Source: Pseudomonadota bacterium (GTDB lineage: Bacteria > Pseudomonadota > Gammaproteobacteria > Burkholderiales > Chitinibacteraceae). Taken from it: a DNA stretch of 64,000 nucleotides. The translations under genes and the position numbers were made by a program. The notes under the pieces were generated by a model. It was not told the origin of the DNA. It did no database searches and worked only from the letters and a program-made list of their open reading frames with translations. The DNA lies in NCBI GenBank assembly GCA_026399755.1, contig JAPLQI010000086.1, positions 1-64,000 on the forward strand, in the 5' to 3' direction. Below are positions 6,359 through 53,838 of this stretch, in pieces. Positions within the stretch are counted from its first letter, which is position 1. Each line of letters begins with the position of its first letter.

Positions 6359-6671
6359 GATGTTACGCAGTGATCATCTTTTTAGTGCCTTCGGCACGTT
6401 GATTTTGGCGCGGTATCCCCGCGAAGTATTTAATTTCCGAACGGCCAAAAATCATAGTACGCAAAGAAGGCCGCCCCACGAAACACGAAGGCCCCCGCCC
6501 CGCTTGTTCGGAGCTTGCGTGTTTCAAGGGGAGATTTAGGCCCAGTGCCACTTGATGCGATACGAATTCTAATCGCTGGGTATTAAACACTAAAAACCTA
6601 TAAAAAAACTTAGTTCAAGCCTTGTTTTTCTCCGTGTTTCAAGATTTGGGTTTGGTTGCGTAACATCAATG
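6359..6671 (+). mobile_element. Type II MITE-like element (about 310 bp)
   Basis: Bounded by GATGTTACGCA (6359-6369) and TGCGTAACATC (6658-6668), perfect 11-base inverted repeats. Inside, the left part holds TTTTTAGTGCCTTCGGCACG and the CCACGAAACACGAAGGCCCC / GTGTTTCAAGGGGA blocks shared with 12782-13010, 33910-34110 and 53586-53820. The right part is shared with 138-279 and, in inverse orientation, 53433-53580. There is no coding frame of note and no clear target duplication. This copy has lost part of the core compared with the 406-bp copy at 53433. Confidence 0.75.
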
Positions 6672-8248: not shown

Positions 8249-8512
8249 ATGCGAAAGTCTTCATTGATCTGTGTGCTTGCCCTGCTACTAGCCAGCCCAG
8301 CCGTATTTGCCAGTTGTAAAGAGTTGATCAAAGAAACAAGGCAGGATATTGAGGACAATCAGGATGACTACACCTTGGTTTCTCGCAATAAGGCCAAGGC
8401 CATGCTAATGAAGGCAGAAGCTAATCTGCTTGATATTAATCCTCTACCAGATTTGGATTGTAGAAAAATGGTGCGCAAGGCCAAATCTGAATTGCGTCAG
8501 GGTAAAAAATAG
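8249..8512 (+). CDS. Small secreted protein of unknown function
   Basis: An 87-residue protein with a clear signal peptide (MRKSSLICVLALLLASPAVFA, cleavage before SCK). The mature part is about 66 residues, charged and helical, with only two cysteines (SCKEL and LDCRKM), which could form one disulfide in the periplasm. AAAGGAA lies 8 bases before the ATG. I do not recognise a family. It sits alone between the PadR/HAAS unit and the copper genes. Confidence 0.65.
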   Translation: MRKSSLICVLALLLASPAVFASCKELIKETRQDIEDNQDDYTLVSRNKAKAMLMKAEANLLDINPLPDLDCRKMVRKAKSELRQGKK

Positions 8513-8717
8513 TTTGTTGTAAGTGTTCTTATAAGCTGAGCAGCTTTGCTGGAAAGCTTAGATGCTTTGTTTTAGTGGGTTTTTAAGCTGTCATTTTTAT
8601 GAGAAAAACTTGCTGTAAATGATGATAAAAGCTTAAAAGTAAACACCGTGTGAATTTCTATTTGATGACGTCGGCCTATGCCAATATAATATTGTCTTTC
8701 TATGCACTTTCTGCCCC

Positions 8718-9104
8718 ATGACAAGACGCTGCTATCAGCTCAGTGTACGCATTGCCTTTTTGGCAATCATGCTGCACGTCTTGATGCCCTTGTTGCATGC
8801 CACCTTGCCGCAATCTGCCTTACGAAGCAGTGTATTTTGCGGCACGCTAACACCTATTGTGGAATACCAGCTTAGCCAGCTGCCCGGCAGTAAATCTGAA
8901 TCTGTTTTAGCGAAAGCTGCGCCTTCCTGTGTACTCTGTGCCCACGCGGATCAAGCGCAAGCGCCTGCTGTAGATCTTGCTGCGACATCTGTAGTGGCAG
9001 CGATGTTGCCGCATACTTTTGGCATGCCCGCGCCGCCTCTGCTGCGGCTGCATCGTAATTCTGCTCTTCCTCCCCCCAGCCACGCCCCGCCTGTTTTCTC
9101 ATAA
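8718..9104 (+). CDS. DUF2946-like protein preceding the copper genes
   Basis: A 128-residue protein with an N-terminal membrane/signal segment (VRIAFLAIMLHVLMPLLHATLP), a CVLCAH pair in the middle and a Pro-rich tail (RAPPLL-like APPLLRLHRNSALPPPSHAPP). That arrangement is typical of DUF2946 proteins, which in proteobacteria lie next to copper-handling genes. The CxxC and His residues could bind metal, but no activity is known. The ATG has no strong ribosome-binding site. The following MbnP/MbnH genes support a copper link. Confidence 0.6.
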   Translation: MTRRCYQLSVRIAFLAIMLHVLMPLLHATLPQSALRSSVFCGTLTPIVEYQLSQLPGSKSESVLAKAAPSCVLCAHADQAQAPAVDLAATSVVAAMLPHTFGMPAPPLLRLHRNSALPPPSHAPPVFS

Positions 9105-9151
9105 CAGATTCTTGATATCCGCGTGTTTTTGCTAAAGACCTAAGTTCTGTA

Positions 9152-9233
9152 GACACAGAGCCAAATAAGAACACAGAGCGCACTGAGAAAACCTAAGGTT
9201 GGTCTGTGCGCTTTGCATGCTTATCTTTGTGTC
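9152..9233. repeat. Family E palindrome (CACAGAG type), copy 1
   Basis: Long imperfect inverted repeat running from GACACAGAGCC through AACACAGAGCGCA to the complementary TGTGCGCTTTG and CTTTGTGTC. A related stretch, GTGCTCTGTGTTCTCACTGA, follows at 9308-9350. Together they occupy most of the 355-base gap before mbnP. Confidence 0.6.
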
Positions 9234-9459
9234 TTATTGATTTAAGGTAAAAAACTGCTGAAGCTTGATGAATACATGTCACAGGGGAATCTTTAAAGGT
9301 TTTCTCCGTGTGCTCTGTGTTCTCACTGATCTCTGTGTCCACAGATCTGAGGTTTTTCAGCCTTTTTGCCTAAACACCCACGCGTTTTCATGGATCTGTT
9401 CAGCCTTTGCTGGCACCCGGTATAGCCGGTGTGCTCCTTTATGCTGTCTGGAGAAAACC

Positions 9460-10401
9460 ATGCGTTTATATGCAATTCTTGCCGTACTTATTTTATCTGC
9501 CTGCAATTCTAGTGGTGATAACGAAGCCACTCCCGTCCCTGCCGTGCCTTTGGCTGATCAAGCCGTGGCGGTGCAATTTGCGCTGAAAGCAGGCGGGCAG
9601 GCCGTGGAATGTAATACCACCTTGCCGAGTCTGGGCTTAGCGGCAACACCCGCTAAATTGCGCGATGCGCGGCTGTATGTGCACGATATCAAGCTGATTA
9701 ATGCGCTGGGCAAGGAAGTGCCTTTGGCGCTGACGCAAAACGATCATCAATATCTGAGTGTGGCCTTGCTGGATTTTGAAAATAAAACCGGTCAGTGTGT
9801 GGGCTCGGCGAGCTTAAATACTCAGGGCAGCGGCATTGTGCCCGGCGGTCAATATATGGGCCTGAGCTTTAAAGTGGGCGTGCCTGATACGGCCAAAGAT
9901 GCCACGGGCAAAGACGTGGTGCTGAATCATTCCGACACCATGGCCGTGCCTGCGCCGCTCAATAATATGGCGCTGGGCTGGAGCTGGCAGGCGGGCCGCC
10001 GCTTTGTGCAGCTGGAGTTAAATCCTGATGTGCCTGCAGTAGGTGGCAAGGCGGTGAACTGGTATTTCCATTTAGGCGCAACCGGCTGCATGGCCGATGC
10101 GGTGGATGCCAATCGCTTTAGCTGCAGCAATCCCAATCTGGTGCCGGTGCGTTTCAGCAGCTTTGATGCGGCTAAGCAGCAGGTGGTGCTGGATTTGGCG
10201 GCGCTTTTGCAAGGCGTGGATATCAGCAAGGATGCAGGTGGCGCGGTGGGTTGTATGAGCGGGCCGACCGATCCTGAGTGCGGGCAAACCTTCGCTAATT
10301 TGGATTTAAATCTGAATGAATCGGCGGCAGGTAAAAAAGACGCGGGCCTGCCTAAAGGCGACGGCAGTTTTTCTAAAGTCTTTAAGGCCGCTCTGAAATG
10401 A
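9460..10401 (+). CDS. MbnP-family copper-binding lipoprotein
   Basis: A 313-residue lipoprotein with the lipobox LILSAC followed by NSSG. Family features are the segment NNMALGWSWQAGRRFVQLEL (W174 and W176), NWYFHLGATGC (W201, C210) and the Cys-containing C-terminal part GCMSGPTDPECGQTF. In characterised MbnP proteins, the partner di-haem enzyme MbnH oxidises a Trp to kynurenine, which helps bind Cu(I). Which Trp would be modified here is not shown. ATG 9460 is chosen because it gives the signal peptide and follows GGAGA; the open frame to 9265 crosses a repeat. The stop overlaps mbnH by ATGA. Confidence 0.85.
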   Translation: MRLYAILAVLILSACNSSGDNEATPVPAVPLADQAVAVQFALKAGGQAVECNTTLPSLGLAATPAKLRDARLYVHDIKLINALGKEVPLALTQNDHQYLSVALLDFENKTGQCVGSASLNTQGSGIVPGGQYMGLSFKVGVPDTAKDATGKDVVLNHSDTMAVPAPLNNMALGWSWQAGRRFVQLELNPDVPAVGGKAVNWYFHLGATGCMADAVDANRFSCSNPNLVPVRFSSFDAAKQQVVLDLAALLQGVDISKDAGGAVGCMSGPTDPECGQTFANLDLNLNESAAGKKDAGLPKGDGSFSKVFKAALK

Positions 10402-11540
10402 TAATCCGCTGCCTTGTGGCAGCGTTAGTGCTCGGCGGCTGCGTGCAGTCGGGCACTTCCACCTCAGATCCAGTGCGCACAAGTGCGAGCTGGAGCTGGG
10501 AGCTGCCGTTTTATTTTCCTACCCCCAAAGTGCCTAGCGATAACCCCATGAGCGAGGCCAAGTTTCAGCTGGGCCGCAGTTTATTTTACGATGCGCGGCT
10601 TTCAGGCAATGGCCAGCAAAGCTGCTCGTCCTGCCATGATCAGAGTAAGGCATTCACTGATGGCAGGGCTGTTTCACTTGGCTCTACCGGCGAGAGCACG
10701 CCCAGAAATGCGCAAGGTTTGGCCAATGTAGCTTGGCATAGCACTTACACATGGGCCAACCCCGCACTGGCGACGCTGGAGCGGCAAATGGAAGTGCCGC
10801 TATTTACCGAGCATCCGGTAGAAATGGGCGTCACTGATCAAAACAAAGCGACGATTCTGGCGCGCTTTCAGGCTGATCGTGATTATGTGCAGCGCTTTGC
10901 CGAAGTCTTCCCTGGTGAGCCGATTGGATTCACACAGATTATTAAAGCCATTGCCACTTTTCAGCGCGGGCTGATTTCTGCGTCGTCTAAATATGATCAG
11001 TATTTGCAAGGCAAGGCGACGTTGTCGATCGCGGAGCTGCGCGGCAAAGATCTGTTTTTTGGCGAGCAGGCCGAGTGCTTTCATTGCCACGGCAGCTTTA
11101 ATTTTAATGATCAGGTGCGCCATGCGGGCTCCAATACGGCCGAAACGCTGTTTCATAACACCGGTCTGTATAACATCGACGGCAAAGGCGGCTTTCCCGA
11201 GCCTAACCGTGGCTTATTCGAGCTGAGCGGCGTGCCAGCAGATATGGGGATGTTTCGTGCGCCCAGCTTACGCAATGTGCAGCTCACCGGCCCCTATATG
11301 CACGATGGCAGTATCGCCACGCTGGAAGAAGTGCTGGATTTTTATGCCGCAGGTGGGCGTGAAATCAAGACTGGCCCGCATAAAGGGGATGGCCGCCTTA
11401 ACCCATTTAAAAGCGATTTGATTGTTCGTATTCAGCTTAACGAGCAAGACAAAGCCAATATCGTCGCCTTTTTAAAGACACTCACCGATGAAAAATTTAT
11501 TACTGATCAGCGCTTCGCTGATCCTCGCCACAGCAAATAG
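10398..11540 (+). CDS. MbnH-family di-haem enzyme (MauG/cytochrome c peroxidase superfamily)
   Basis: A 380-residue exported lipoprotein (VLGGC lipobox near residue 15) with two c-type haem motifs, C76SSCH80 and C227FHCH231. The segment TWANPALATLERQMEVPLF and the EMGV turn are typical of the MbnH branch, as distinct from classical CcpA peroxidases. The expected role is high-valent iron chemistry on the MbnP Trp in the periplasm. It overlaps mbnP by four bases, and the next gene starts 53 bases inside its 3' end, so the three genes form one tight operon. Confidence 0.87.
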   Translation: MIIRCLVAALVLGGCVQSGTSTSDPVRTSASWSWELPFYFPTPKVPSDNPMSEAKFQLGRSLFYDARLSGNGQQSCSSCHDQSKAFTDGRAVSLGSTGESTPRNAQGLANVAWHSTYTWANPALATLERQMEVPLFTEHPVEMGVTDQNKATILARFQADRDYVQRFAEVFPGEPIGFTQIIKAIATFQRGLISASSKYDQYLQGKATLSIAELRGKDLFFGEQAECFHCHGSFNFNDQVRHAGSNTAETLFHNTGLYNIDGKGGFPEPNRGLFELSGVPADMGMFRAPSLRNVQLTGPYMHDGSIATLEEVLDFYAAGGREIKTGPHKGDGRLNPFKSDLIVRIQLNEQDKANIVAFLKTLTDEKFITDQRFADPRHSK

Positions 11541-12618
11541 CGCGCTGGCCCACGATGGGCCGCACGATGATGAGACCACAGGCTATACGCAAATTAATCT
11601 GCTGACTAATATTCGCTACCTGAGCGCCGATACGGCATGGCCGAGTGCGCTGCCAGTTCTGGGGGCCAGCAATGAGGACCGGCGTGGCGCGTGGTACGGC
11701 GGCTCTGGTATTGAGTGGCGTCAGCGCTGGACAGCAGAAATTGACACGCAGCTGATGGCCGCATACGACGAACATGATAATGGCGTGGCGCTGGATCATG
11801 CGGTGATTCGTTACCAGACTGATGCGGCGCAGCTGGTCTTGGGGCGGCAGTCGCCCGTGTTGGCCGAAGCCGGATTAAGCGCTTGGGCGCTGCCTGATTT
11901 ATGGCTCTATACGGTATTGGGCGATGATCACTGGCACGAAGATGGCTTAGCCCTGCGTTATACCGCAGGCAAGCTGACAGGGCACGCAGGTGTTTTTAAT
12001 GGCCACGGCTACCCGGGGGCAGAAAGCGCCATGTGGACGGCAGGCTTAGCATGGCAGGATGGCCCATGGTTTGTGGCGGGGCATGTTGCATATTTGCCGG
12101 AAGTAAATCATTCCTTAGTCAGTGACGCGCATAGCGGGCATAGTCACGCTGGGCAAGCTGTGGGCTGTGGTAAGTTAACAGATTGCTTGGCTGGAAAATC
12201 CACTCTGCTGCGCGCTAAGGCTGGCTGGCAAGGGAGACAATACTGGCTGCAATCGGCATGGAGCTGGCAGCAGCAGGATGGCCAGCTTGAAAGCACTTTG
12301 GGCCGCATTAGCTATCAGGGGGAGTTAAACAGCTTGGCGTTTGAGGGCGGAGCCAAAATCACCGACACCATTAAACTGGCGCTGCGTCATGAGTGGATGG
12401 GGATTACCCATGAATTAGCTGGCGTGAACGCCGCGCAAATTGCCAGCAAAAACGGCATTGCCAATAGTGACGAGCAGCCAAGCCAAACAGGCATTCGCCT
12501 AAGTTGGCAAGCTCATCCCGCGCATTTGCTGGCGCTGGAGCTGTATCAAACCCAGCGCAGTGGTGAGTCGAATCATCTGGCGATGCTGCAATGGCAGATG
12601 AATGCGCGGCTGTATTGA
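11488..12618 (+). CDS. Histidine-rich outer-membrane beta-barrel protein of the copper cluster
   Basis: A 376-residue protein with a Sec signal peptide (ending NSALA) and a mature start HDGPHDDE. The rest alternates short amphipathic aromatic strands (WRQRWTAEIDTQLMAAYDEH, LALRYTAGKLTGHAGVF, YWLQSAWSWQQ) and ends MLQWQMNARLY, an aromatic-terminated last strand, as in porins. It has no TonB plug or TonB box. One predicted loop is rich in His and Cys (HSLVSDAHSGHSHAGQAVGC, then KLTDC). I infer a barrel that binds or admits copper for the MbnP/MbnH pair. It overlaps mbnH by 53 bases. No named family was recognised beyond porin-like. Confidence 0.6.
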   Translation: MKNLLLISASLILATANSALAHDGPHDDETTGYTQINLLTNIRYLSADTAWPSALPVLGASNEDRRGAWYGGSGIEWRQRWTAEIDTQLMAAYDEHDNGVALDHAVIRYQTDAAQLVLGRQSPVLAEAGLSAWALPDLWLYTVLGDDHWHEDGLALRYTAGKLTGHAGVFNGHGYPGAESAMWTAGLAWQDGPWFVAGHVAYLPEVNHSLVSDAHSGHSHAGQAVGCGKLTDCLAGKSTLLRAKAGWQGRQYWLQSAWSWQQQDGQLESTLGRISYQGELNSLAFEGGAKITDTIKLALRHEWMGITHELAGVNAAQIASKNGIANSDEQPSQTGIRLSWQAHPAHLLALELYQTQRSGESNHLAMLQWQMNARLY

Positions 12619-12637
12619 TGGTTGATAGGCCATTTTT

Positions 12638-13049
12638 GTAGGGCGGGTGCAAGCCGCCGGGTTTGGGAGTGAAATCTTAGGAAAGCTCAGGAGGCACCGC
12701 ATATCTGCTAAGTAGTTTGCTTTTGTATTAGCAAACAACGAAAAATTGTAATGACTAAGCTATTTGCACGGGGCTTAAAAATCCCCCTGAAGCACGCCGA
12801 AGCGAGGAACAAGCGGGGCGGGGTTTCGGCGAGGATGTTTGAGCGAAGCGAGTCCCGCAGCCGCCGACTCGATTGTCCGCAGTGAGGGGCCTTTGTGCTG
12901 TTTGGGGCGGCCTTCTTTGGCTTCGTTTCTTGGCCGTTCAAGAAAGGAAGGCCCCCGCGGTGGCCAACCGCTCCAAAATCAACGTGCCGAAGGCACTAAA
13001 AAGGTCTTTTTGACTTTGCTTAGTGCATACGCGGGTTTCACCCGCCCTA
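12638..13049 (-). mobile_element. Type I MITE-like element (about 410 bp) inside the copper region
   Basis: The ends are GTAGGGCGGGTGCAAGCCGC (12638) and GCGGGTTTCACCCGCCCTAA (13031-13050), arms of family A. The core 12782-13010 is the shared block in reverse orientation, with GAAGCACGCCGAAGCGAGGA, GACTCGATTGTCCGCAG, CTTTGGCTTCGTTTCTTGGC and GTGCCGAAGGCACTAAAAAG. The copy at 33834-34240 has the same plan in the other orientation. It separates the barrel gene from the PCuAC gene. Confidence 0.75.
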
Positions 13050-13116
13050 AGCATGATGCAACGCTCGTTTATTACTTTGGCAGACTCATGATCTGCCTCT
13101 TTTAAGGGAAATAAAA

Positions 13117-13590
13117 ATGAAAAAAATCGCTTTATTACTGGCCGCTGTCTGCGTGTCTGCTACTGCTTTTGCCCATGAATACAAGGCTGGGGAGATTCGG
13201 GTAGTGCATCCTTTTTCGGTGCCTACTTTGCCGGGTAAGGATATGGGGGCGGTGTATATCGGGTTAGAAAACAAGGGCTCCGTGGATGATCAGCTGATTG
13301 GGGCAAGTAGCGATCGGGTAGGGCGGGTGGAGATACACACCATGAGCATGGAGGGCGATGTGATGAAAATGCGCCAAGTGCCAGAGCTAGAAGTGAAGGG
13401 CGGTGAAACCATCAAGATGAAGCCGGGCATGGGTTATCACCTGATGATTTTTGGTGTGAAACAGCCATTAAAAGCAGGCGATAAGTTTCCGCTGAAATTG
13501 CAGTTTAAAAAATCAGGCTCGGTAGAGGTGTCGGTGATGGTCCAAGAGCGGGATGTGGGCGCAAAGGCAGCTGAAGGGCACTTCCATTAA
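13117..13590 (+). CDS. PCuAC-family periplasmic copper chaperone
   Basis: A 157-residue periplasmic protein with a cleavable signal (ending ATAFA, mature HEYKAGE). The copper-ligand pattern is visible: VEIHTMSMEGDVMKMR, then GYHLMIFG, matching the His/Met spacing (H...M...HxM) of PCuAC/DUF461 proteins that deliver Cu(I) to cytochrome oxidase. The C-terminus HFH adds possible ligands. AAGGGA precedes the ATG. It lies downstream of the MbnP-MbnH-barrel operon but is separated by a 410-bp repeat element, so it probably has its own promoter. Confidence 0.93.
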   Translation: MKKIALLLAAVCVSATAFAHEYKAGEIRVVHPFSVPTLPGKDMGAVYIGLENKGSVDDQLIGASSDRVGRVEIHTMSMEGDVMKMRQVPELEVKGGETIKMKPGMGYHLMIFGVKQPLKAGDKFPLKLQFKKSGSVEVSVMVQERDVGAKAAEGHFH

Positions 13591-33833: not shown

Positions 33834-34240
33834 GGCGGGTGCAACCCGCGAGGCATACTGAAAAATACGCGGGTTGCACTACATGTGCGCTAAGCAAACC
33901 TAAAAACAATGCTTTTTAGTGCCTTCGGCACGTTGATTTAGGAGCGGTAGCCACCGCTGGGCCTTCCTTTCTTGCTTCGCCAAGAAACGAAGCCAAGCGA
34001 CAACAACAAAACACGAAAGCCCCTGCTGTGGTCCAATCGAGTCGGCGGCGGGAGGGATTGGCTCGTTCCTCGCTCCGGCGTGTTTCAAGGGGGCTTTAAA
34101 AAGCCCTATGCAAAGTGCGTGGTTGTTATGCTTTTTCGCTGTTTGCTAATGAAAAAAAATTTGCTGAGCGCTCATGGAACACACCCCACCATAGCATTTG
34201 CATAAATGCTATGGAAAACGGCGGCTTGCACCTAGCCTAC
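33834..34240 (+). mobile_element. Type I MITE-like element (about 407 bp)
   Basis: The left end carries a family A palindrome (33834-33880) with the loop AGGCATACTGAAAAATA. The core with TTTTTAGTGCCTTCGGCACG, CGCCAAGAAACGAAGCCAAG, GTCCAATCGAGTCGGCGGCG and CGGCGTGTTTCAAGGGGGC spans 33910-34110. A linker GCTGTTTGCTAATGAAAA follows (compare the same segment of the 12638 copy), and the right end is GGCGGCTTGCACCTAGCCTAC (34220-34240). No coding frame. The further gap to the OmpA-type gene (34241-34450) shows nothing else. Confidence 0.72.
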
Positions 34241-53432: not shown

Positions 53433-53838
53433 GATGTTAGGCAGTAAAACCCAATTCTTGAACCACGGAGGCCACAGAGAGCACGGAGTTCCACGGAGAA
53501 AAACAAAATTTTAATTAAGCTTTTTTGTAGGTTTTGAGTGTTTTAAAACTCAGCAATTAGGATTCGTATCGCCGCTAGTAGCATGGGGCTTAAATTTCCC
53601 CTTGAAACACGCCGGAGCGAGGAACAAGCGGGACGGGGTTTCGGCAAGGGAGCGAGGCAGCGAGCCAATCCCGCCCGCCGCCGACTCGATTGTCCGCAGC
53701 GCAGGAGCCTTTGTGTTTCGTGGGGTGGCCTTCTTTGGCTTCGTTTCTTGGCCACACAAGAAAGGAAGGTCCCGCGGGACGCCCGCACCTAAATTCAGCG
53801 TGCCGAAGGCGCTAAAAAGATAAAAATTGCATAACATC
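53433..53838 (-). mobile_element. Type II MITE-like element, longest copy (406 bp)
   Basis: Ends are GATGTTAGGCA (53433-53443) and TGCATAACATC (53828-53838), inverted repeats with one mismatch. The core (53586-53825) is the shared block in reverse orientation; 53505-53585 is the inverse of the segment at 138-279. Inside the right part is a CCACGGAGGCCACAGAGAGC insert (family E) absent from the 6359 copy. It ends two bases from the xseA stop codon. Confidence 0.78.

Follow-up and report, generated by a model that had tools for sequence, protein, structure and literature searches.

The stretch of DNA examined here (the window) is 64,000 nucleotides long and occupies the start of contig JAPLQI010000086.1 of assembly GCA_026399755.1, a genome of the Chitinibacteraceae that comprises 4.9 Mb in 145 contigs with a completeness of 100 and whose nearest named kin, among the best 80 of 355 loci, are Iodobacter strains and metagenome-assembled genomes (MAGs), including one MAG labelled Janthinobacterium. 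Between positions 8718 and 13590 its plus strand carries, in this order, a short leader-like open reading frame (ORF), mbnP, mbnH, a gene for a predicted outer-membrane barrel, and a gene for a periplasmic copper chaperone of the PCuAC family. All five genes lie where a first-pass annotation, made from the sequence alone, had placed them, and the two overlaps that it described are exact, namely ATGA at 10398-10401 for mbnP and mbnH and 53 bases at 11488-11540 for mbnH and the barrel gene. The order leader-mbnP-mbnH-barrel is kept in eight of nine same-genus genomes, the ninth (G028) being without MbnP. What is new is the overlapping candidate metal porin, together with a sister branch linked to ZnuA-like genes; MbnP-MbnH (MbnPH) pairs without methanobactin genes, and CruR ahead of such a pair, are already known.

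The mbnP gene (9460-10401, plus strand) encodes a protein of 313 amino acids (aa) with a lipoprotein-like start, and mbnH (10398-11540, plus strand) a 380-aa di-haem enzyme with the haem motifs CSSCH (residues 76-80) and CFHCH (227-231). Both family calls of the first-pass annotation are confirmed, since MbnP scores 257.9 bits against TIGR04052 (cut-off 140) and MbnH 495.6 bits against TIGR04039 (cut-off 362.85); MbnP also scores 103.6 bits against Pfam MbnP (cut-off 27), and the score of MbnH with the MauG profile, 154.4 bits, is under the cut-off of 443.85. In the PDB, 7l6g is the sole match of MbnP at E <= 0.01 (E 4.5e-68) and 6e1c the best of 30 matches of MbnH (E 5.4e-153), both presumably being Methylosinus trichosporium OB3b entries. 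The chemistry by which a tryptophan of MbnP becomes kynurenine was reportedly set out by Manesis et al. in PNAS in 2021. The WxW motif of the window protein (W174-W176, positions 9979-9987) is conserved, as are H204, C265, and M266; W174 and W176 are present in 98 of 98 aligned rows, in which the window protein is entered twice, and C51, C210, C222, C265, and C274 are kept in 98-100% of the same rows. The C and H of both CXXCH sites of MbnH are invariant in a 10-row alignment.

MbnP has a single match in the genome; it occurs in 11 of the 43 genomes sampled from the same family and exceeds its cut-off in 13 of the 369 sampled from the same class, a further sample of 100 genomes having been drawn from the order. 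Methanobactin operons often include mbnP and mbnH (PMC3621798). The proposal that a stand-alone MbnPH copper system exists here without methanobactin genes is supported by a search of the genome, in which no MbnB exceeds the cut-off (best 52.8 bits against 325), and MbnPH pairs far outside the methanobactin producers were already published in 2013 (PMC3621798). The two matches of the MbnB profile (52.8 and 43.7 bits) were considered as methanobactin genes elsewhere in the genome and rejected, both being MbnB_TglH_ChrH (MNIO) enzymes; a search of the genome for MbnC found no match, yet was also silent in all control genomes. At one of the two MNIO loci (L003:981-2831) the enzyme gene has a bufferin-type precursor (DUF2282) on one side and a DUF2063 partner on the other, a bufferin setting by Pfam, and the second MNIO locus (L002:454-1565) has a small neighbour without a Pfam match.

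The third gene of the overlapping series (11488-12618, plus strand) encodes an outer-membrane barrel of 376 aa from an unnamed family. The first-pass annotation had only listed it, as a histidine-rich barrel, and the AlphaFold model (mean pLDDT 81, pTM 0.80) agrees in predicting 16 strands. The window protein (P0003) matches no Pfam or NCBIfam family; among 46 aligned members, four Pfam families are matched, each in one of the 46, one NCBIfam match (1/46) is due to chance, and TonB-receptor plug and barrel domains are matched by none. The barrel profile likewise gave one chance match (E 0.21) among PDB sequences. Foldseek with the model returned 251 chains at E <= 0.001, with porins first among the 50 listed; these fold neighbours are outer-membrane barrels. 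The protein is predicted to be a porin of 16 strands. A literature search in which subscription papers were thinly covered found no description of it, which does not establish that none exists.

The N terminus of porins is periplasmic. All long loops of the model, loop 210-232 included, lie on one side, which would be the outside if the N terminus of the barrel, as assumed, is periplasmic too. The loop between strands 9 and 10, as placed by alignment and model, contains the sequence GHSHAGQAVGCGKLTDC (residues 217-233, codons at 12136-12186, plus strand); H218, H220, and C227 lie in loop 210-232 and C233 opens strand 10. No aligned row (46 of 46) deviates at H218 or H220, and C233 is kept in at least 90%. 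This GHxH..C..C loop is probably extracellular, and the mature protein likely begins with His, going by its AxA|His start. Cysteine and an N-terminal histidine are good copper ligands.

The distribution of the barrel was followed in 80 named MbnPH loci, the best 80 of 355 when ranked by similarity to the window MbnH, which are mostly from Betaproteobacteria going by their titles and in which L060-L063 duplicate L021, L018, L020, and L023. The barrel is found in 65 of the 80 and is the most constant third member of these loci as well as their least explained part. In 59 of the 65 it starts between -100 and +10 bases relative to an mbnH stop, in most cases overlapping the end of mbnH; five of the other six are ORF calls that begin too early (-235 to -319), and in the last (L119) the ORF, at +213, is broken up. 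The GHxH..C..C motif is present in 63 of the 65 (exceptions L127 and L132). The barrel and MbnP profiles were iterated on the same set of loci that they scored, comprising 104 loci with duplicates and with one locus (L059) that is without mbnH. In the family sample, a search with the single P0003 sequence matches 9 of 11 MbnP-bearing genomes and 0 of 32 without MbnP, and the profile finds the barrel in the remaining two, giving 11 of 11.

Variants of this arrangement can be detected in several loci. Ten, mostly from Zoogloea (L069-L073, L076, L077, L082, L084, and L085), have the barrel 799-1138 bases behind the first mbnH and more than one mbnH ORF over 300 bits each; in L069 and L076 the space between is filled by a second mbnH. 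Genes were listed for eight of the 15 named loci without the barrel, and four of the eight (L091:4036-4995, L106:3889-4860, L114:4011-4964, and L129:3779-4795; Undibacterium and Derxia) encode a different, ~320-aa barrel-like protein ahead of mbnP, with CG[AS]xFCLVNTD after a signal-like start and, in the three scanned, no or sub-cut-off Pfam matches. In another of the eight, an Azonexus locus without a barrel of this family, a TonB-dependent receptor (L133:2910-4985) lies directly upstream of mbnP. A third type of neighbour, of ~300 aa with CSTCxxGDPT after a signal-like start and no Pfam family above cut-off, occurs in the class-sample MbnPH loci L054 (4418-5308), L056 (3489-4397), and L057 (7133-8050).

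Relatives of the barrel also occur away from MbnPH. The barrel profile matches 98 of the 369 class-sample genomes, and the two matches above 300 bits are both MbnPH loci; from the 96 further genomes, the next 30 loci (L142-L171, two of them nearly identical) were taken by rank. A ZnuA-like gene follows the barrel on the same strand in all 30, at -54 to +58 bases in 29 and at 428 in one, the ZnuA-type model having been built from four of the 30 that are all ZnuA in Pfam. In the order sample, 33 of 100 genomes have a match. The one locus besides the window that exceeds 300 bits (L172, 340 bits) adjoins mbnH and mbnP and has both GHSHSH..C..C and AxA|His, and in the eight next best that were fetched, of 31 further genomes, a ZnuA-like gene again stands behind the barrel in all eight; none of the fetched order-sample loci entered a model. 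In all, the ZnuA-like gene is directly behind the barrel in 38 of 38 non-MbnPH loci examined (L142-L171 and L173-L180), and since this holds for 30 of 30 class-sample loci, the sister barrels are not random porins. These proteins, which are ~370-540 aa long and unnamed in Pfam and NCBIfam among the members scanned, may constitute a zinc or manganese porin family, judging from their gene neighbourhood; a literature search for a ZnuA-linked porin found nothing relevant among the papers listed.

The two groups are separated by a single branch of the tree (SH-aLRT 98), with a long row (L047, MbnPH-linked) nearest the split, and they differ in their candidate ligands. An AxA|His start, scored as a pattern only, is found in 65 of 73 MbnPH-linked barrels versus 0 of 30 ZnuA-linked ones; six of the eight misses have a start that is miscalled or truncated, and in L083 and L087 the His follows a different cleavage-like site. 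A Cys pair after GHxH is found in 63 of 65 versus 0 of 30.

It could be argued that the barrel is a general porin without a metal role, carried along with MbnPH, in which GHxH and the Cys pair help the protein to fold or stabilise the loop. Its fold neighbours do include the ordinary porins OmpT (Vibrio), PorB, and OmpF, the Pfam family matched by one of the 46 aligned members is in one case Porin_O_P, and MbnPH is found without the barrel. A general porin would however hardly be expected to start so regularly at an mbnH stop (59/65), to give no single-sequence match in any MbnP-negative genome of the family, or to have non-MbnPH relatives that precede ZnuA-like genes at every locus examined (38/38), and this explanation is considered unlikely. 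The overlap with a copper-handling gene pair behind a likely copper-sensing leader, and the position of the nearest relatives beside ZnuA-like genes, which are of the zinc-uptake type, suggest a dedicated outer-membrane route for copper. A broader proposal, put forward tentatively and with the balance tipped slightly to the negative, is that the third gene is the founding member of a plug-less metal-porin family not described before, with a copper branch beside MbnP and a zinc or manganese branch beside ZnuA-like genes, in which the choice of metal follows the choice of ligand (the Cys pair and the free N-terminal His).

At the upstream end of the locus, the ORF at 8718-9104 (plus strand, 128 aa) contains CVLC (8928-8939) and, 47 residues further on, HAPP (9081-9092), followed by VFS and the stop codon. 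It is best explained, from its motifs and position, as a copper-sensing leader of the CruR type. In Bordetella, the DUF2946 protein CruR has been described as a copper-sensing upstream ORF with CxxC and a C-terminal RAPP that acts through Rho-dependent termination, and cruR operons are said to comprise MbnPH-like genes (PMC9426467), so that the occurrence of CruR ahead of MbnPH is already published and not new. CVLC and [HQ]APP-VFS are kept in 8 of 8 same-genus leaders, and at the family level two related leaders exceed the Pfam DUF2946 cut-off (L016, 42.3 bits; L015, 28.8 bits). With a pattern consisting of CxxC and a C-terminal [RHQK][AGS]PP 40-50 residues apart, an ORF can be detected upstream of mbnP in 44 of the 80 named loci, or in 41 of the 69 having at least 2.5 kb upstream; as a control, the pattern was found anywhere on the other strand in 1 of 80, and a looser version allowing any residue in the first place gave minus-strand matches in three loci (L052, L108, and L118). 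The 44 leaders end in RAPP (31), RGPP (9), QAPP (2), or HAPP (2), with a spacing of 42-47. The first-pass annotation had taken the ORF as one more part of the copper cluster; the CxxC, the 47 residues, and HAPP make a copper-responsive leader more likely. What it observed is confirmed and its reading of MbnPH without methanobactin is supported, its interpretation as a whole being partly supported. We infer from the arrangement that the leader is the first gene of the copper operon.

Several DNA elements lie around the leader. A sigma-70-like promoter, TTGATG-17-TATAAT (8662-8690, plus strand), precedes it with 10 of 12 consensus matches, and the TATAAT box is kept in 8 of 8 same-genus sequences; the match alone is weak because five such sites are seen in the region against 4.1 expected, and scans for promoters and terminators gave counts no different from those in shuffled sequence. 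A C>G bubble over the end of the ORF (9014-9113, plus strand) is a candidate Rho-utilisation region and is likewise present in 8 of 8 same-genus sequences. Its C-G excess of 28% in 78-base windows is the plus-strand maximum of the 64 kb, yet the minus strand reaches 37% and has 19 peaks of at least 25% against four on the plus strand, which leaves the bubble as weak evidence. Between leader and mbnP lies a stretch of 355 bases (9105-9459, plus strand) that varies among relatives and holds a 61-nt imperfect inverted repeat (9134-9194/9297-9357, plus strand). The repeat was considered as a regulator and rejected: the stretch is far shorter in L023 and L024 and different in L019, and the repeat therefore looks like a passenger; no other copies were found within the window. 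Upstream of the leader, an 87-aa protein with a signal-like start (8249-8512) matches no family above cut-off and is near the locus in three of seven same-genus relatives.

The family of the leader also bears on whether the locus might buffer or detoxify copper, with a CutF-like leader through which copper raises expression, and with MbnP, MbnH, and the barrel trapping the excess or disposing of it. DUF2946 includes CutF, which acts in the opposite way to CruR (PMC9973294), and of the two MNIO loci in the genome one is bufferin-type, a setting that has been described and whose bufferins help during copper stress (PMC12452194). CutF differs, however, in having CxxxC and a stem-loop that covers the next start (PMC9973294). 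The window leader is CruR-like in its spacing, its xAPP end, the 355 bases that separate it from mbnP, and its C>G bubble, and both the synteny with PCuAC and the ZnuA-linked sister porins point to import, so that detoxification appears rather improbable.

The PCuAC gene (13117-13590, plus strand) encodes a 157-aa periplasmic copper chaperone (PF04314, 124.8 bits against 29.4) and is the only PCuAC match in the genome. It is separated from the barrel gene by 498 bases (12619-13116) that hold a dispersed repeat (12721-13027), of which at least four copies can be detected in the window (the others within 6378-6548, 33886-34156, and 53574-53819), with pieces 76-82% alike. PCuAC lies near MbnPH in seven of eight same-genus loci, with a gap of 144-678 bases, and was absent from the fetched stretch of the eighth (L021, genome G032); it is present in 41 of the 80 named loci. 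In G009, a genome of another genus, the PCuAC gene comes 46 bases after the leader and 116 bases ahead of mbnP, and this gene order is the best sign that PCuAC belongs to the same pathway. A handover of copper to PCuAC, as proposed by the first-pass annotation, is suggested by synteny. As a certain member of the operon, PCuAC was rejected, given the repeat-bearing gap of 498 bases, the variation of that gap, and the missing gene in the L021 stretch.

Taken together, the His/Cys loop, the N-terminal His, the overlap with mbnH, the leader, and the nearby chaperone fit a cassette for copper import in which the porin feeds MbnP, and the locus is probably a cassette with which an Iodobacter genome acquires copper under scarcity, equipped with its own metal porin. 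It is proposed that when copper is lacking, the ribosome would slow at the HAPP of the leader and shield the C-rich mRNA, so that transcription continues into mbnP, mbnH, and the barrel gene, and that copper bound to the leader CxxC would release the ribosome and allow Rho to end transcription. The 16-strand porin would concentrate copper by its extracellular His/Cys loop and may hand it, at the periplasmic face, to the His with which the mature protein begins. MbnH would oxidise the first Trp of the MbnP WxW to kynurenine, giving a copper-binding MbnP that catches the incoming ion, and PCuAC would be a plausible taker for the assembly of cuproenzymes. The porin itself may be one branch of a wider metal-porin superfamily, the other lying directly upstream of ZnuA-like genes.

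A number of observations weigh against this proposal. The role of mbnPH was called unknown in 2022, with speculation directed to methanobactin maturation or copper release (PMC9601215). Residues 213-225 of the loop have a pLDDT below 50 in the model, and its two Cys may just form a disulfide. The AxA|His and Cys-pair marks were derived from the same sequences in which they were counted, L172 being the sole outside test, and GHxH occurs in 24 of 30 class-sample but 0 of 8 order-sample ZnuA-linked barrels and is therefore no hallmark of the superfamily. No barrel match was found in 15 of the 80 named loci (in three, the contig ends no more than 350 bases from mbnH), MbnPH loci of other Gammaproteobacteria are mostly without the barrel, and in the class sample it adjoins MbnP in two of the 13 genomes with MbnP over cut-off and not in the other 11, which means that MbnPH does not need the barrel. 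Co-transcription of PCuAC in the window strain is doubtful. For the leader, the match to Pfam DUF2946 (19.6 bits) is below the cut-off of 23.7, so that "DUF2946-like", the wording of the first-pass annotation, is the correct one; a search of the genome with PF11162 gave nothing at E <= 0.001, and the pattern found no leader in 36 of the 80 named loci. The Arg of the arrest motif is replaced by His or Gln in 8 of 8 same-genus sequences (five HAPP and three QAPP), and in Bordetella CruR the R139A change removed arrest in vitro (PMC12992588), R139A together with A140S also removing downstream expression (PMC9426467).

These last points raise the possibility, a serious one if still on the doubtful side, that the leader is a decayed CruR which does not stall for want of the Arg, the operon being constitutive or otherwise regulated in this genus; this would be compatible with the barrel being a copper porin. 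The uniform HAPP or QAPP of the same-genus leaders, the sub-threshold DUF2946 match, and the loss of arrest in R139A (PMC12992588) all speak for decay. On the other hand, eight genomes of different species share the CxxC, an xAPP placed three residues ahead of the stop, and the TATAAT box; HAPP recurs in the leader of G009, from another genus, and so has the look of a variant that is maintained; and HGPP is part of arrest sequences recovered in an Escherichia coli screen (PMC12992588). Stalling is uncertain in this genus because of the replacement of the Arg, and control of the operon by copper through the leader thus appears likely across the group and uncertain in the genus itself.

According to a review of 2020, copper enters across the outer membrane by way of porins, a few TonB-dependent transporters, and chalkophores (PMC7558416). 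Passage of copper across this membrane is poorly known, and the present comparison links a porin-like gene with MbnPH in dozens of mostly betaproteobacterial loci. The barrel suggests a likely route by which metal could reach MbnPH outside the methanobactin producers, and with its copper-linked and ZnuA-linked branches the selection of metals by outer-membrane channels can be tested side by side.

The locus shares mbnP and mbnH with methanobactin operons, of which they are often part (PMC3621798), but differs in that the window genome has no MbnB over cut-off and no match to MbnC, for which the control was silent too. Compared with the MbnP/MbnH pair represented by 7l6g and 6e1c and by TIGR04052 and TIGR04039, the curated cut-offs are passed and the WxW, haem motifs, and Cys positions are kept, whereas the window locus is without methanobactin genes and has a CruR-like leader ahead and an overlapping porin-like gene behind. 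The leader resembles CruR of Bordetella pertussis in being a short ORF with CxxC and with xAPP three residues before the stop, in its spacing (47 versus 45), and in its C>G bubble, long intergenic stretch, and copper-related genes downstream; it differs in the HAPP or QAPP that the window genus has for RAPP, in its sub-cut-off Pfam match, and in preceding MbnPH and the barrel, CruR itself preceding a TonB-dependent transporter. Entry of copper through the outer membrane, as proposed for the barrel, is also the function described for CrtA/OprC and for RopAe of Rhizobium etli (PMC12914433, PMC6011978), although CrtA/OprC are plug-bearing receptors of the TonB-dependent kind and RopAe belongs to Porin_2 (PF02530), neither of which is matched by any member of the barrel alignment. 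The ZnuA-linked barrels (L142-L171) are homologous by profile (133-167 bits to the MbnPH-barrel model, n = 30) and of similar length, but they precede a ZnuA-like gene and are not beside MbnPH, fall on a separate side of the tree, and in 30 of 30 cases have neither the Cys pair nor AxA|His.

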